Source of the DNA: Microbacterium luteum
GTDB lineage: Bacteria > Actinomycetota > Actinomycetes > Actinomycetales > Microbacteriaceae
NCBI RefSeq assembly: GCF_015277875.1
Contig: NZ_CP063814.1
Span: forward strand, 2,542,001-2,606,000
Reading direction: 5' to 3'
DNA: 64,000 bases
Every line of letters starts with the position of its first letter. Positions within the stretch are counted from its first letter, which is position 1. The translations under genes and the position numbers were made by a program. Positions 7,110 through 31,060 of the stretch are shown one piece after another. The notes under the pieces were generated by a model. It ran no database searches, was not told the DNA's origin, and worked only from the letters and a program-made list of their open reading frames with translations.

Positions 7110-7200
7110 CGAGTGTTCGATCGGCCCAGGCGTGCGGTCGACGTGCCATGCGGTCGCTTCCCGGTGGTCATCCACCTCAACGCCAGTCGCGACATCCCCG
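7110..7200 (-). ncRNA. ZTP (pfl) riboswitch upstream of glyA
   Basis: Read on the minus strand, the leader has the conserved parts of the pfl motif in order. GTCGC followed by GACTGGCG is at about 7181-7193. A GGTGG-ATG-ACCACC hairpin follows, then CGGGAAGCGAC, whose GCGAC pairs with the first GTCGC. After a linker comes CGCCTGGGC (complement near 7124-7132). The class senses ZTP/ZMP, a sign of 10-formyl-THF shortage, and is known to control glyA, folD and purH genes. A TATGAT box at 7201-7206 places the transcript start just before the aptamer. The expression platform is not resolved. One consensus position differs (GGGAAG for GGGGAG). Confidence 0.9.
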
Positions 7201-24970: not shown

Positions 24971-25050
24971 CCGGCGTCCCTGGGCATCAGACCAGGGACT
25001 GCTGCCAAGCCCGGCGTCCCTGGGCGTCAGACCAGGGACTGCTGCCAAGC
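24971..25050 (-). repeat. 40-base tandem duplication containing a terminator hairpin
   Basis: Bases 24971-25010 repeat 25011-25050 with a single mismatch (24986 against 25026). The second copy holds the last codons and stop of the ABC exporter gene. Each copy contains TCCCTGG-N8-CCAGGGA, a 7-bp hairpin over or next to the stop. The effect is two tandem terminators made by a recent duplication. Confidence 0.85.
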
Positions 25051-26841
25051 ACTGTGGAGCTGAGCGAACTTGCCGTCACCGGCGATCAGGGCCGCGGGAG
25101 CGTCATCCTCGATGATGCGTCCGTGCTCCATGACGAGCACGCGGTCCGCGATCGCGACGGTGGACAGCCGGTGCGCGATGATGATCGCGGTGCGATCCGC
25201 GAGCAGGGTCTGGAGCGCCTCCTGGATCAGACGCTCGCTCGGGATGTCGAGCGAGGCGGTCGCCTCGTCGAGGATGAGCACGGCCGGATTCGCCAGGAAC
25301 GCCCGGGCGAACGAGATCAGCTGCCGCTGCCCCGCCGACACCCGGCCGCCGCGCTTGTTCACATCGGTCGCGTAGCCGTCGGGAAGCGCCTCGATGAACT
25401 CGTGCGCGCCGACGGCGCGCGCGGCATCCTGGATCTCCTCGATCGTCGCGTCGGGCTTGCCCAGCGCGATGTTGTCGGCAACCGTGCCGCTGAACAGGTA
25501 CGCCTCCTGCGTGACCATGACGATGGCCCGTCGCAGGTCTTTCGGATGCAGCTGACGCAGGTCGACGTCGTCCAGGGTGATGGCGCCGCGGGTGGGGTCG
25601 TAGAACCGCGAGACGAGCTTGGCCAGGGTCGACTTGCCCGCACCCGTCGTTCCCACCAGCGCGATGGTCTGTCCGGCGGGGATGTCCAGCGTGAAGTCGG
25701 GCAGGATCACCCGGTCCTCGGAGTATCCGAAGCGCACGTCGTCGAAGCGCACGTGACCGCGCGCCCGCCACAGGTCGACCGGCTTCGCCGGGTCGGGCAC
25801 CGTCGGCTCCTCCTCGAGCACGCCCGAGACCTTCTCGAGCGCGGCGGTGGCCGACTGGTAGGAGTTGAGGAAGAACGCCACCTCCTGCAGCGGCGAGAAG
25901 AAGTTCCGAACGTAGAGGACCGCCCCCACGAGGGTTCCGATCGCCATCGCACCCTCGGCCACGCGCACGCCGCCCCAGAAGACGATGAGGGCGAGCGACA
26001 CCGACGCGATGGCCATGAGTCCCGGCTCGAACGTGCCGAAGAGGCGGATCGAGCGCATGTTGACGTCGCGGTACCGCATCGCGAGGCCGCCGAACTCGTC
26101 GTCGTTGCGCGGCTCCTTTCGGAACGCCTTCACCGCCCGCACACCCGTCATCGTCTCGACGAACTTCACGATCACCTGGGCGCTGATCACACGCGACTCC
26201 CGGTAGACCAGCTGGGAGCGCAGGTAGAACCACCGCATGAGGAAGAAGAGGGGGATGCCCATCAGCACGATGATGACGCCGGACTGCCAATCGAGCAGCA
26301 GCAGCGCGGCGAGCGTGAACACGCCGTAGAGGAGCCCCGAGACGAGCTCGTTGAGACCGCCGTCGAGCAGCTCGCGGATGGTGTCGAGGTCACTCGTCTG
26401 CCGCGAGATGATGCGGCCGGAGGTGTAGGACTCGTGGAACTCCAGGCTCAGGCGCTGGGTGTGCAGGAAGATCCGCTTGCGCAGGTCGAGCATGATCGCC
26501 TGGGTCAGCCGCGCCGCGACGACGGCGTACCAGCCGACGAGACCGGCACCTCCGAACGCCGTGAGCAGGTAGACGGCGACGACACCCACCGTCGGCATCC
26601 AATCCATCCGATCGACGGCTGCGGGGAGGGCCGTGTTGATGCCGTAGGTGATCAGAGCGGGGCCGGCCACGCGCAGCACCGTCGACACGATGAGCACGGC
26701 TGCGGCCAGCACGAGCTGCCAGCGAAGGGTGCTCACGAGCGAGCCGAGCAGGCGCAGCGAGCGCCGCCGGATCGCCCGGCTCTCCTCGCGGGTGTAATCG
26801 GAGCGGTCCTCGCCGCGGGTTCCGATGATGCCGGTGCTCAC
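25027..26841 (-). CDS. Heterodimeric ABC exporter, subunit with canonical catalytic Glu
   Basis: A 604-residue half-transporter: about six membrane helices, then an ATPase domain. Walker [11 protein letters not shown]-loop [12 protein letters not shown], Walker [13 protein letters not shown] and H-loop IAHRLST are all standard, but the signature is VSAGQRQL instead of LSGGQ. The partner gene upstream has the opposite defects, so the pair should form one active and one degenerate ATP site, as in BmrCD or TM287/288. GTG 26841 overlaps the partner stop by GTGA. Cargo is probably a drug or lipid; multidrug efflux is inference. The 3' end is duplicated. Confidence 0.93.
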
Positions 26842-28673
26842 AGGTTCACCTCCGTCTCGCGCGCACGCGCTTCGTCGTCTTCGAGGCTCGAGATCACATG
26901 CCGGTAGTGGGCGCTCTCGCGCAGCAGATCGGAGTGCGCCCCGACCGCGGTGACCTTTCCGGCCTCGAGCAGGGCGACCCGATCGGCGAGCATCACCGTC
27001 GACGGGCGGTGCGCGACGATCATCGCCGTGGTGTCGTGCAGCACCTCGCGCAGCGCATCCTCCACGAGCGCCTCGGTGTCGACGTCGAGGGCGGACAGCG
27101 GGTCGTCGAGCACGAGGATCGACGGCCGTGCGGCAACGGCGCGGGCCAGCGCGAGACGCTGACGCTGCCCGCCGGACAGGCTCAGGCCCTCCTCGCCGAT
27201 CACGGTGTCCACGCCGTTCGGCAGATCGTCGACGAAGTGCGCCTGCGCCACCTGCAGCGCTTCGCGCAGGATGCGCTCGGCCTCCTCGCTGCCCGGCTCG
27301 AGGTCTTCGCGCCCCAGCAGCACGTTCTCCCGCACGGTCTGCGAGAACAGGGTGGCGTCCTCGAACGCCATGCCCACGTGCGTGCGCAGCTCCGCGAGCG
27401 TGAGGTCGCGCACGTCGACGCCGTCGACGGTGACACGCCCCGCGGTGACGTCGTACAGGCGCCCGGGAAGGGTCGTGAGGGTCGTCTTCCCCGAACCGGT
27501 CAGGCCGACGAGGGCCATCGTCTCCCCCGGACGCAGCACGAGGTCGACGCCGTCGAGCAGATCTCGCTCGTGGTCGCGCGCATCCTGGTAGCGGAAATGG
27601 ACCCCCTCGAACGCGAGCTCGCCGCGGGGCTCGGCGATCGTCTTCGGCTCGTCCGGATCGACGATGGGGTTCTGCTCGTCGAAGACCTCGAAGATGCGGT
27701 CGGTCGCGGTGCGCGCATCCAGCAGGAACGAGAACAGGAACCCGATCGACTCGACCGGCCACCGCAGGATGGTCGTCATCGCGAAGAATGCCACCAGCTC
27801 CCCGACGCCGAGCTGCCCCAGGGCGACCAGGTAGATTCCCGCGCCGAGGCAGAGCGCGAACGCGATGTCGGGCAGCAGCACGAGCCAGAACCAGATCCAC
27901 CCCACCGCGCGCGCCTTGTCGAGCTCGGTCTCGCGGAGGGTCTCGGCCTGACGGGTGAACTTCTTGAGCGCGTGCGAGCCGCGGCCGAATGCTTTGAGCA
28001 CCCGGATGCCGTGGACGCTCTCCTCCACGCTCGTCGCCAGGTCGCCTGCCTGATCCTGGCTCTGCCGTGCGAGCACCCCGTAGGTCTTCTCGAACCGGTA
28101 CCCGGCGTACCACAGCGGTGCCGAGGTCACGAGGAAGATCGTGCCGAGCACCCAGTGCCAGCGGAACAGCAGCGCCGCACCGACGAGGATCGTCAGCACG
28201 TTCACGACGAGGAGCACGAGTCCGAACGCGATCCAGCGACGCAGCATGCTGATGTCCTGCATCATGCGGCTGAGCAGCTGACCCGACTGCCACCGGTCGT
28301 GGAACGCGACAGGCAGGCGCTGCAGACGCGAGTAGAACGTCTGCCGGATGTCGTACTCCATGAGCGTCGCCGGTGCCAGCACGAACCACCGCCGCAGCCA
28401 CACCATGAGGGCCTCGGCCAGGCCGAGGCCGAGGATCGCGGCGGCTCCCCACGCGATGAGAACCGTCGAGCCCGAGGCGATCGGGCCGCGCACGACCTCC
28501 TCGAGGATGAGCGGGATCATGAGGGCGAGGATGCTCGCGCCGAGAGCGCTCACGGCGCCGAGCGCCAGTCGCGGCAGGACGGGCTTGGCGAACGGGATGA
28601 GGCGCGCGAGCGCGCGCGGCGTCGAGAGGCGGTGCGGAGTCGGATCGGTCTGATCAGGAGCGGTGGTGGTCAT
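26838..28673 (-). CDS. Heterodimeric ABC exporter, subunit with degenerate ATP site
   Basis: A 611-residue half-transporter with N-terminal membrane domain and C-terminal ATPase. Walker [10 protein letters not shown] and signature LSGGQRQR are intact. The Q-loop glutamine is Glu ([10 protein letters not shown]) and the catalytic Glu after Walker B is Asp ([12 protein letters not shown]), the marks of the non-catalytic site in asymmetric exporters. ATG 28673 has AAGGATC before it. A 25-codon ORF with a perfect ribosome site and a GC hairpin stand between the promoter and this gene, which suggests attenuation control. It overlaps the second subunit by 4 bases. Confidence 0.93.
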
Positions 28674-28787
28674 GATCCTTGTGGGAGTGGTGGAGCGGAC
28701 CGCGCAGATGAAGCGGTGGGGCGGCGCCGGATGGCGCAGAGATCGGAGGGCGTGCGATCAGGTGAACGCACGGACGGGACAGAAGAT

Positions 28788-28805
28788 GCCCGGAATGCAC
28801 CGGGC
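28788..28805 (-). terminator. Candidate attenuator hairpin in the exporter leader
   Basis: GCCCGG-TGCATT-CCGGGC on the minus strand, a 6-bp GC stem that begins 14 bases after the stop of the small ORF and is followed by ATCTTCTGTC. It lies 114 bases before the exporter start. Its place is right for a transcription attenuator governed by ribosomes on the small ORF, but the stem is short. Confidence 0.45.
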
Positions 28806-28819
28806 GCGCGCGAGGAGAC

Positions 28820-28897
28820 TCAGCGGGCGCGGTCGGGAAGGATCCCGAACCCGGCGACGAGGACGGATGCGCTCTTCACAACGGCGGCGTGGGACAT
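28820..28897 (-). CDS. 25-residue leader ORF upstream of the ABC exporter
   Basis: An ATG preceded by AGGAGG at exactly 5 bases (28903-28908) opens a 25-codon frame, MSHAAVVKSASVLVAG...PDRAR, ending in TGA. It is the best ribosome site in the region, better than that of the exporter itself. A promoter with TTGCGG and TATTCT at 18-base spacing lies upstream. The peptide is hydrophobic in the middle with a basic end. The likely role is a cis-acting leader peptide controlling the exporter, by analogy with BmrB before BmrCD; a free functional peptide is the alternative. Confidence 0.65.
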   Translation of the reverse strand: MSHAAVVKSASVLVAGFGILPDRAR

Positions 28898-28946
28898 GGC
28901 ATCCTCCTAGGGTTCACGGGAATGTCGCGATCGGCGACAGCCGTTC

Positions 28947-28976
28947 AGAATATCGGGATCGGCGCGACGTCCGCAA
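28947..28976 (-). promoter_or_regulatory. Promoter of the leader ORF and ABC exporter
   Basis: On the minus strand TTGCGG (28971-28976) and TATTCT (28947-28952) are 18 bases apart. They lie about 40 bases before the ribosome site of the leader ORF. The promoter sits in the gap after the ogt stop codon. Confidence 0.55.
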
Positions 28977-29027: not shown

Positions 29028-29540
29028 TCAGCCGGCGACGGCCTCGCGGGCGAGGAGGCTGCGCTTGACGTCCAGTCCCCACGCGAAGCCGCCGAGTGTC
29101 CCGTCCGAGCGCAGCACGCGGTGGCAGGGAACGAACAGCGCCGGCGCGTTGCGGGCGCAGATCGCCGCGGCGGCGCGCACGGCACTGGGAGAGCCGAGAG
29201 CCTCGGCGAATTCCGTGTACGTGAGCGGACGGCCGGGCGCGATCCCGCGCAGCGCCGCCCATCCCGCGCGCTGCAGGGTCGTGCCGGTCTGCGACACCGG
29301 CACCGCATCGATCGCGTGCACGTCGCCGTCGTAGTAGGCAGCGGCGGCGACCGCGGCATCGGATGCGGGGCTCTCGCCCGCCACGGTGCGCACGTCGGTG
29401 GGGCGCTGGACCGGCCGCAGCCGCGCGAGGATCGTCTCGGCATCTGCGGTCCAGCCGGATGCGATCACGCGCCCTCCGTCGTCGGCGAGGATCGTGAAGG
29501 CGCCGTCCGGGGTGTCGAGGGTCTGCAGCGTGGCGGTCAT
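29028..29540 (-). CDS. ogt: Methylated-DNA-protein cysteine methyltransferase
   Basis: This suicide repair protein moves methyl groups from O6-methylguanine to its active cysteine, in [19 protein letters not shown]. It has 170 residues; the N-terminal ribonuclease-H-like half is followed by the DNA-binding domain with [22 protein letters not shown] 29540 overlaps the stop of the Ada-AlkA gene (ATGA), so the two are co-translated. Together they form a methylation-damage repair unit. Confidence 0.95.
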
Positions 29541-31060
29541 GATGCCTCCTGGAGCGGGCTGTCGGTCGGTACGGATGCGCGCCGCGAAGTCGGCGCGGCG
29601 GCCCAGAGGTGCGCGGTGAGGTAGCTGCGCCACGGCGCGAGTCGCTCGGCCCACGCGGCATACCCCTTCGGATCGGACGGGATGCCCAGCGCACGCGCTC
29701 CCGCACGCACCGCGACGTCACCGGGAAGGGTGATGTCGGGGTCGGCGAGCACGCGCATGCGCACGTAGTCGGCCGTCCACGGTCCGATCCCGGGGCGGGC
29801 GAGCAGGGTCGCGCGCTGCTCGGAGGCGTCGTCGCCCGGCCCGAGGGCGAGCTCCCCCGACGCGAGTGCGGCGGCGGCTCCCGCGATGGCGCGGATGCGC
29901 GCGGCCGGCCCGCGCAGCACCTCACGACCGTGCTCGGCGATCGCAGCCATCGTGGGGAACAGCCGGTCGGTGCCGGCGTGCGGCGCGACCCGCTCCCCCA
30001 GCGCCGCGGCGAGCGCCGTGAGCGCCGTGCGCGCGGCGGCGACCGTGACCTGCTGGCCCACCATCGCCCGGATGAGCATCTCGTGCGGGTCCGCGGCCCC
30101 CGGAACCCGGATGCCGGGAAGAGCCGCGACCCGCCCCGCGAGCTCGGGGTGTCGCGCCAGCGCCTCGTCGACGGCGAGGGGATCGGCGTCGAGGTCGAAC
30201 AGCCGGCGCACTCGCGTGACGAGCACGGGCAGATCGCCGAGGTGTGCCAGGCGTGCGTGCAGGCGCACACGGTCGTCCGCGCCGACGCGCACCTGGAACC
30301 AGGCCGCGCCTGCGGGAAGCCGCAGCGCGCGGGCGAAGGATGCGTCGTCGGCGACTTCGACGCCGGCGACGGCGCGCGCAGACATCCACGCGAAGAGTCC
30401 GGCGGCGTCAAGCGGTCCGCGGTGGGGCAGCACGAGATCGATCGCCCCCGCGACCGGCTCGCCCGCTCGCGTGCGACGCCGACGGGCGCGCAGGTCGAGC
30501 GGCGACATCCCGAACACCTCGCGCACCGTGTCGTTGAATTGACGCACGCTCGAGAAGCCCGCCGAGAACGCGACGTCGGCGGCGGGCATGTCGGTGCCCA
30601 CGAGGAGCATGCGCGCCGTGTGCGCGCGGTGCGCCCGACTGAGCGCGAGCGGACCGGCGCCGAGCTCGGCGGTGAGAAGCCGTGTGAGGTGACGCGTCGA
30701 GTAGCCGAGCCGGCGTGCGAGGCCCGGCACGCCCTCGCGCTCGATGACGCCGTCGGCGATCAGACGCATCGCCCGGCCGGTCACATCGCCCCGCAGGTTC
30801 CACTGCGGCGAGCCCGGCGCGGCCTCGGGCAGGCAGCGCTTGCACGCGCGGTATCCCGCCTCGTGCGCCGCCGCCGACGTGGCGTAGAAGGTGACGTTCG
30901 ACTCCTTCGGCGTGCGCGCCGGGCAGCTCGGGCGGCAATAGATGCCCGTCGAGCGCACAGCGGTGACGAACTGCCCGTCGAAGCGGCGATCGCGAGAGCG
31001 GATGACGCGATAGCGCTCGTCGAAGGACATCACGGGGATGCTCGTCGCCGGCGTGCTCAT
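29537..31060 (-). CDS. Ada-AlkA fusion: methyl-sensing regulator and 3-methyladenine DNA glycosylase
   Basis: A 507-residue fusion. Residues about 10-80 are the Ada zinc domain, with four cysteines in [13 protein letters not shown] and [11 protein letters not shown]; the first is the methyl acceptor. An AraC-type helix-turn-helix follows ([20 protein letters not shown]). The C-terminal half is AlkA, with its N-terminal domain and the HhH-GPD motif [15 protein letters not shown] plus the catalytic Asp in DPDITLPGD. It repairs alkylated bases and, once methylated, should activate its own operon including ogt. The ATG at 31060 starts the zinc domain; the open frame beyond is a shadow. Confidence 0.94.

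Follow-up and report, generated by a model that had tools for sequence, protein, structure and literature searches.

Small open reading frames (ORFs) placed ahead of resistance or transporter genes are known from several bacteria. The bmrB ORF of Bacillus subtilis precedes bmrCD and holds both an intrinsic terminator and an antiterminator, with AbrB controlling the growth phase of expression (PMC4191407). The upstream ORFs (uORFs) of Streptomyces are5sc and tiaA regulate ABCF proteins and encode very short peptides (MLV and MVGDDDISG), and their leaders have predicted terminator/antiterminator folds and toeprint responses to named drugs (PMC12421871). Another actinobacterial case is whiB7/wblC, where ribosome stalling in a uORF induces the downstream resistance gene; its target is a transcription factor, and a regulatory hairpin is predicted in its leader, for which a Term-seq track is given (PMC13236596). 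Finally, toiL-topAI of Escherichia coli uses its uORF as a general sensor of translation stress linked to Rho, the first seven residues of toiL being the conserved part and a hairpin hiding the topAI ribosome site (PMC12121999). A sequence-only reading of the DNA considered here had held that an antibiotic-sensing leader would be new in actinobacteria, and this does not stand in view of the Streptomyces uORFs (PMC12421871) and whiB7/wblC (PMC13236596). No paper on the Microbacterium exporter leader itself was found among the literature matches listed.

The leader in question lies in a 64,000-nucleotide stretch of Microbacterium luteum DNA (the window). A promoter, an AGGAGG ribosome site, a 25-codon ORF, a hairpin, and an asymmetric ABC exporter had been proposed to follow one another there, and all were recovered at the same positions and spacings (Table 1). 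The two promoter elements are 18 bases apart, five bases separate AGGAGG from the small-ORF ATG at 28897, and 114 bases separate the hairpin from the exporter ATG.

Table 1. Leader and exporter features, in window coordinates
Feature	Position	Strand	Remark
-35 element TTGCGG	28976-28971	minus	TTG with an 18-base spacer in 85 of the 87 leaders having the -10 motif
-10 element TATTCT	28952-28947	minus	TANNCTG...GCT motif in 87 of 89 distinct leaders
5′ leader hairpin TGTCGC-CGATC-GCGACA	28923..28939	minus	between the inferred start site and the small-ORF ribosome site
Shine-Dalgarno AGGAGG of small ORF	28908-28903	minus	GGAGG pattern passed by 108/108 loci with upstream DNA
5′ arm of masking helix GAGGATGC	28906-28899	minus	predicted window fold
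Small ORF MSHAAVVKSASVLVAGFGILPDRAR, 25 codons plus TGA	28897-28820	minus	conserved in relatives
Anti-Shine-Dalgarno arm GCATCCGTCCTC	28859..28870	minus	inside small ORF; pairs with 28906-28899 in predicted fold
Hairpin GCCCGG-TGCATT-CCGGGC of the earlier reading	28805-28788	minus	present, 14 bases past ORF stop
Second hairpin CGTGCG...CGCACG with CGTTC stretch	28751..28772	minus	window fold
Exporter ribosome site and start CAAGGATCATG	28671..28681	minus	SD-like stretch and ATGAC in 85 of 89 leaders
Exporter subunit 1, 611 aa	26838..28673	minus	ATG at 28673; Pfam ABC_membrane and ABC_tran
Exporter subunit 2, 604 aa from GTG	25027..26841	minus	4-base overlap with subunit 1

By its sequence hallmarks, the gene pair is a heterodimeric ABC exporter in which one ATP site is degenerate. 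The complementary degenerate motifs claimed for it were confirmed, since subunit 1 carries LVLDDP (Asp replacing the catalytic Glu) with a canonical LSLSGGQ, whereas subunit 2 carries LILDEA with a degenerate RVSAGQ signature. Paired half-transporters with such complementary motifs are also found in TM287/288 and BmrCD, and among solved structures the best sequence matches of subunit 1 are multidrug ABC exporters, including TM_0288 and YheI, a PDB name that we take to denote a BmrCD subunit. No NCBIfam family reached its cut-off among the best 25 of 183 matches for each subunit. Subunit 1 is 97% identical to that of Microbacterium sp. EAC103; matches to this ABC protein occurred in all 98 genomes searched (58 of the same genus), and the plasmid collection gave no match. 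An exporter match with one in-frame TGA was reported in Microbacteriaceae genomes G217, G148, G138, G177, G114, G256, and G195. The gene upstream of the leader matches ogt-type DNA methyltransferases and is co-oriented with the exporter in 85 of 89 relatives; its ogt-type region lies at 29028-29654 of the window, and an Ada/AlkA-like ORF adjoins it by eye.

Conservation of the small ORF was followed in a near set of 110 loci at 79% identity or above, some species being present in both contributing sets, with 500 upstream bases inspected per locus. A GGAGG-led ORF of 17–40 codons precedes the exporter in 108 of them, and the other two (L028 and L100) stop at a contig end. The ORF is thus conserved beyond chance, as every near locus with upstream DNA carries it, whereas shuffling the last 320 leader bases produced such an ORF in 6 of 1780 cases. 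Control intergenic stretches contained such an ORF in 1 of 16 and 0 of 12 cases, and AGGAGGANGCCATG occurs only once in the 3.52 Mb genome, at the small ORF. Removal of identical upstream stretches left 89 distinct leaders of the 108, and features of the ORF pattern in these 89 are not independent evidence, because the leaders were kept by that pattern. One locus with the same leader type, 81% identical to the window's exporter, comes from a record titled Planococcus sp. APC 4015 (L086), a title that is probably a mislabel. A more distant sample comprised 27 of the 29 remaining same-genus loci, 40 loci from other genera of Microbacteriaceae, and the 13 best hits outside that family, the scan being relaxed slightly to admit AGGAG and ORFs of up to 50 codons. 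The ORF was found in 18 of the 27 and 28 of the 40, and in none of the 13 from other families.

Base composition suggests that the ORF is read as codons, with GC fractions by codon position of 0.75/0.605/0.85 inside it versus 0.746/0.747/0.746 in the 60 bases past the stop. Its stops across 89 relatives are TAG (51), TGA (19), and TAA (19), and the stop type differs in 4 of 28 close pairs. Conservation of the peptide, implicit in the notion of an antibiotic-sensing leader peptide, was not borne out. Over the 28 close pairs, pN was 0.102 and pS 0.124 in the small ORF, while the exporter gave 0.020 and 0.246 over 16 of these pairs, the other 12 being dropped where the ungapped comparison failed. 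Substitutions in the ORF showed no third-position excess (65, 78, and 78 by codon position over the 28 pairs), and multiples of three were not enriched among its indels (33 of 98 between nearest neighbours, in alignments of partly diverged pairs). The pN/pS ratio was 0.8–1.0 in each of three ORF parts, and codons 2–9 changed least, at synonymous and nonsynonymous sites alike (pS 0.059, pN 0.058), which points to the RNA. The peptides range from 18 to 38 residues and have very different sequences. We infer that the small ORF is translated and that its peptide is not the target of selection.

These data bear on two readings in which the peptide itself would matter. Position-specific ribosome arrest by the peptide, through a macrolide-type +X+ motif, would agree with the many arginine-rich ends and with the finding that 61% of 85 peptides carry Arg or Lys at the sixth position from the end. 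It is very unlikely, as that motif occurred in 30 of 85 peptides versus 27.5 ± 4.2 in shuffles, for which it was rejected, and as the ORF parts all share the pN/pS range given above. A functional small protein as the product of the ORF, for example an accessory peptide of the exporter or an exported substrate, is highly improbable; proximity to the exporter in every near relative examined and a translated-looking composition would suit this, but purifying selection on amino acids hardly goes beyond that at synonymous sites, and neither length nor sequence is kept. An amino-acid attenuator of the trpL or ilv type was rejected as well, with no shared run of one-amino-acid codons seen by eye in 89 peptides; the peptide composition is led by Ala, Val, Arg, and Pro, with Trp at 0.001, Cys at 0.001, and His at 0.015.

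Another property of the ORF is that its own codons can, on the evidence of predicted pairing, mask the small-ORF ribosome site in the clade near the window. The predicted window helix pairs the 5′ arm with GCATCC and CCTC of the anti-Shine-Dalgarno (anti-SD) arm, a stretch within codons 9–16, and the window's SD-ORF duplex is -14.6 versus a null of -12.3. Among relatives, 74 of 89 ORFs contain CCTCC, TCCTC, or TTCCT, mostly at ORF bases 34–41, versus 37 ± 3.5 when codons were redrawn from exporter usage. Since that first null used exporter codon usage, the SD test was repeated with the uORFs' own usage, which gave 73 of 87 versus 56 ± 3.5, a conservative null because the uORF codons include the motif. 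CCTCC falls in either of two frames (38 and 18 cases), so that amino-acid constraint does not explain the anti-SD.

The duplex energies agree with the motif counts. Over 87 distinct leaders, the SD pairs with bases 24–60 of its own ORF at -13.3 kcal/mol, below the lowest draw of all four nulls, namely synonymous codons at exporter usage (-10.7 ± 0.24, 200 draws) or uORF usage (-12.16 ± 0.19, 200), shuffled codon order (-9.3 ± 0.23, 200), and swaps between sequences (-12.6 ± 0.15, 300), all of which, like the other nulls used here, overstate significance because the sequences are related. The signal is maximal at ORF bases 24–48; 81 of 87 leaders lie under their own exporter-usage null mean, and 33 lie at or under its fifth percentile. 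Other potential anti-SD partners (5′ UTR, spacer, and exporter start) were all weaker than the synonymous null. The SD has a predicted mean unpaired share of 0.20 in 84 leaders, and among the predicted folds of 88 leaders its main partner is the ORF in 51 and the spacer in 24. RNAalifold drew the masking helix in clade alignments A, B, D, and E, and not in C, of the five tried, which is taken as a lead only. The helix was not significant in 18 further Microbacterium leaders (-9.9 vs -9.73 ± 0.45) and was weak in 28 leaders from other genera (-10.66 vs -10.11 ± 0.34). Taken as one segment, the SD through base 60 forms a less stable fold than its synonymous variants (-23.1 vs -26.6), and the whole window leader is no more stable than shuffles (z -0.78).

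The promoter upstream of the ORF is also shared by relatives, its TANNCTG...GCT motif having a chance level of 3 in 1600 shuffles (the shuffled sequences being those of the other 80 loci). The two leaders that have this motif and depart from the usual spacing have TTG at a 17-base spacer, and a strict sigma-70 scan of the window did not pick up the promoter. The start-site region 3′ of the -10 is conserved as GGAGGGCTG in most relatives and reads GAACGGCTG in the window. Exact TANNCTGGAGGGCTG is present as a single copy per genome in 10 of 11 genomes, by coordinates always at the exporter leader, and the remaining genome is the window's own, in which the letters differ; this single-copy placement suggests a promoter dedicated to the exporter leader rather than the mark of a regulon. 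The bases after the -10 (window 28947-28930, GGAGGGCTG) are conserved beyond what an ordinary promoter needs, also in several ORF-less leaders. An operator-like CCAGG-N5-CCTGG, noted by eye, overlaps the -10 in many relatives.

A putative hairpin with some covariation follows the promoter in the 5′ leader. Folding of this stretch gave a mean z of -1.75 over 87 leaders (28 below -2), with -1.9 in the window and 0.0 in its nearest relative, L031. Covariation was counted in 34 sequences of similar length, chosen from 85 located stretches, on a six-pair stem drawn from the same alignment. The stem was formed in 88% of cells versus 77.8 ± 1.5 in shuffles, and sliding it along the alignment gave 30–65%; cells changed on both sides numbered 20 versus 3.3 ± 2.1, a level reached by 0 of 500 shuffles. 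Pairs changed on both sides (2 vs 1.7) and pair types (9 vs 7.6, equaled or exceeded in 42 of 500 shuffles) were unexceptional.

The ORF is absent from 9 of the 27 further Microbacterium loci and 12 of the 40 other Microbacteriaceae loci, so the exporter can do without it. In eight of these nine Microbacterium loci the promoter motif is retained, and its median distance to the aligned exporter start is 79 bases, versus 268.5 in 16 of the 18 ORF-bearing ones; the small ORF therefore accompanies some 190 extra leader bases. Outside Microbacterium, the promoter motif was found in 15 of 40 loci (9 with the ORF and 6 without) and in none of the 13 other-family loci. ORF presence is clustered and requires no fewer than 14 changes, of which branches with strong support force 2, on a tree of 110 rows and 80 columns in which 48 of 105 inner branches are open and gain looks the same as loss. 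These shorter leaders under the same promoter, the drift of the peptide, and a similar 5′ stem that can be drawn by eye in ORF-less leaders would all suit a leader that regulates nothing, its length serving 5′ stability or a fixed expression level and its ORF being a by-product of a strong ribosome site. Such a reading is rather doubtful given that GGAGG and a start codon are kept in all near loci with upstream DNA, that the composition is of coding type, and that the anti-SD exceeds its four nulls.

Between the ORF and the exporter lies a spacer, untranslated over 146 bases in the window. The original proposal had been tied to conservation of the ORF or of the hairpin past its stop; the former is conserved, and the latter is weak. 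Ribosome-mediated transcription attenuation, in which a stalled ribosome favours an antiterminator over this GC hairpin as in bmrB or whiB7/wblC, draws support from the order of parts, which resembles bmrB, from Streptomyces uORF ribosome sites that overlap anti-terminator hairpins, and from the window hairpin, which with its tail ATCTTCTGTC passes a terminator-like scan as one weak candidate. The hairpin fails as a conserved terminator or switch, for terminator-like sites were found in 3 of 89 leaders versus 1.7 ± 1.0 in shuffles, and the 65 bases past the stop, slightly more stable than shuffles, have a mean z of only -0.53 (6 of 88 below -2). The remainder of the spacer gave -0.81 (2 of 45 below -2), and even in the closest relative, L031, the hairpin is not identical base for base. 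With no conserved terminator in 89 leaders for a competing antiterminator of the bmrB or ARE5/WblC type to oppose, attenuation of this kind is unlikely.

The base content of the spacer is C 0.479, G 0.264, T 0.167, and A 0.09 over the 89 leaders. Its C minus G is 0.213, versus 0.019 and 0.066 in controls of only 12 and 16 intergenic stretches, and this C-rich, G-poor character may hint weakly at Rho. Of the 89 spacers, 62 contain CGTT, at unrelated positions in some, and a GGCATA hairpin followed by CGTTCYC recurs in relatives of window 28750-28820. Rfam found in the window only a ZTP riboswitch far from the leader (ZMP/ZTP, 7117-7200, minus strand, 52.5 bits, above the gathering score), and in 18 related loci one sub-threshold microRNA match.

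Translation attenuation of the ermC or toiL kind, in which the leader hides the exporter ribosome site until a stalled ribosome frees it, is a mechanism known for toiL. GATCCTT in the window ORF is complementary to the exporter site over 7 bases without a mismatch, and with a ribosome modelled at the ORF start, accessibility of that site rose by over 0.05 in 18 of 84 leaders and fell in 7. Such control is quite unlikely, though, as hiding is not enriched (longest complement 5.1 bases vs 4.98 in shuffles, 85 leaders), and ribosomes modelled at the start, codon 8, codon 14, and stop shift accessibility by at most 0.017 on average (84 leaders) and at most 0.01 in the window. Because of this lack of enrichment, and because the modelled ribosome opens nothing on average, GATCCTT is treated as chance; the exporter site is predicted to be about 0.56 unpaired as it is. 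With neither a conserved terminator nor conserved masking of the exporter site, the candidates left are Rho, mRNA decay, and no regulation.

What remains of the proposed leader is a conserved ORF with coding-type composition, a promoter, and an asymmetric exporter; a conserved terminator or switch hairpin and a conserved peptide have fallen away. The region could be the regulatory leader of the exporter operon, with one dedicated promoter giving rise to a transcript that would carry a hairpin, a short translated ORF, an untranslated spacer, and the exporter pair. This layout is shown by sequence and comparison, its start site and translation being presumed. A perfect ribosome site on the small ORF and its complement in codons 9–16 would form a switch between open and masked states; the pairing potential is statistical and belongs to the near-window clade, and switching would be a further step. 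Since the peptide drifts, it is presumably ribosome occupancy of the ORF, rather than peptide identity, that counts. Occupancy would then set the amount of transcript reaching the exporter, via Rho or mRNA decay acting on the spacer, and translation stress, for example from sub-inhibitory ribosome-targeting drugs, would lead to more exporter; the outcome step, direction, and signal are all conjectural. A ribosome-occupancy leader of this sort, perhaps acting through Rho or mRNA decay, is the reading we tentatively favor, at somewhat less than an even chance. The more specific claim of a self-masking uORF is doubtful, if quite conceivable; it holds jointly that the ORF's own codons are the anti-SD, that the peptide is irrelevant, that ribosome availability or early elongation stalls set exporter output, and that neither an intrinsic terminator nor a hidden exporter ribosome site takes part.

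Set beside the described systems, the Microbacterium leader resembles bmrB-bmrCD in having a small ORF, here presumably translated, upstream of a heterodimeric ABC exporter and under its own promoter, and differs from what is described there in lacking a conserved terminator and in having a small ORF maskable by its own codons (PMC4191407). The Streptomyces ARE5 uORFs, whose ribosome site lies in a hairpin, offer the closest likeness to the masking helix; a uORF site so placed, as in the ARE5/WblC type, is predicted here only in the clade near the window, and unlike are5sc and tiaA the Microbacterium ORF precedes an ABC exporter with no conserved terminator (PMC12421871). The whiB7/wblC system likewise has an actinobacterial uORF, before a resistance gene there and before a drug-pump-like exporter here (PMC13236596). 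The toiL uORF would be alike in sensing translation stress with a link to Rho, and its conserved part likewise lies near the start; unlike the case reported for toiL, hiding of the exporter site is not a conserved feature of the Microbacterium leader (PMC12121999). Within the literature matches listed, the self-masking design, together with an exporter preceded by such a leader, may be new.

The relatives that have lost or never had the ORF and spacer and yet keep the promoter are natural deletions in which the function of the leader could be measured. If the reading is true, uORF control of ABC exporters would gain a testable example that spans much of an actinobacterial family, with a switch resting on RNA pairing within the uORF rather than on a stalling peptide.
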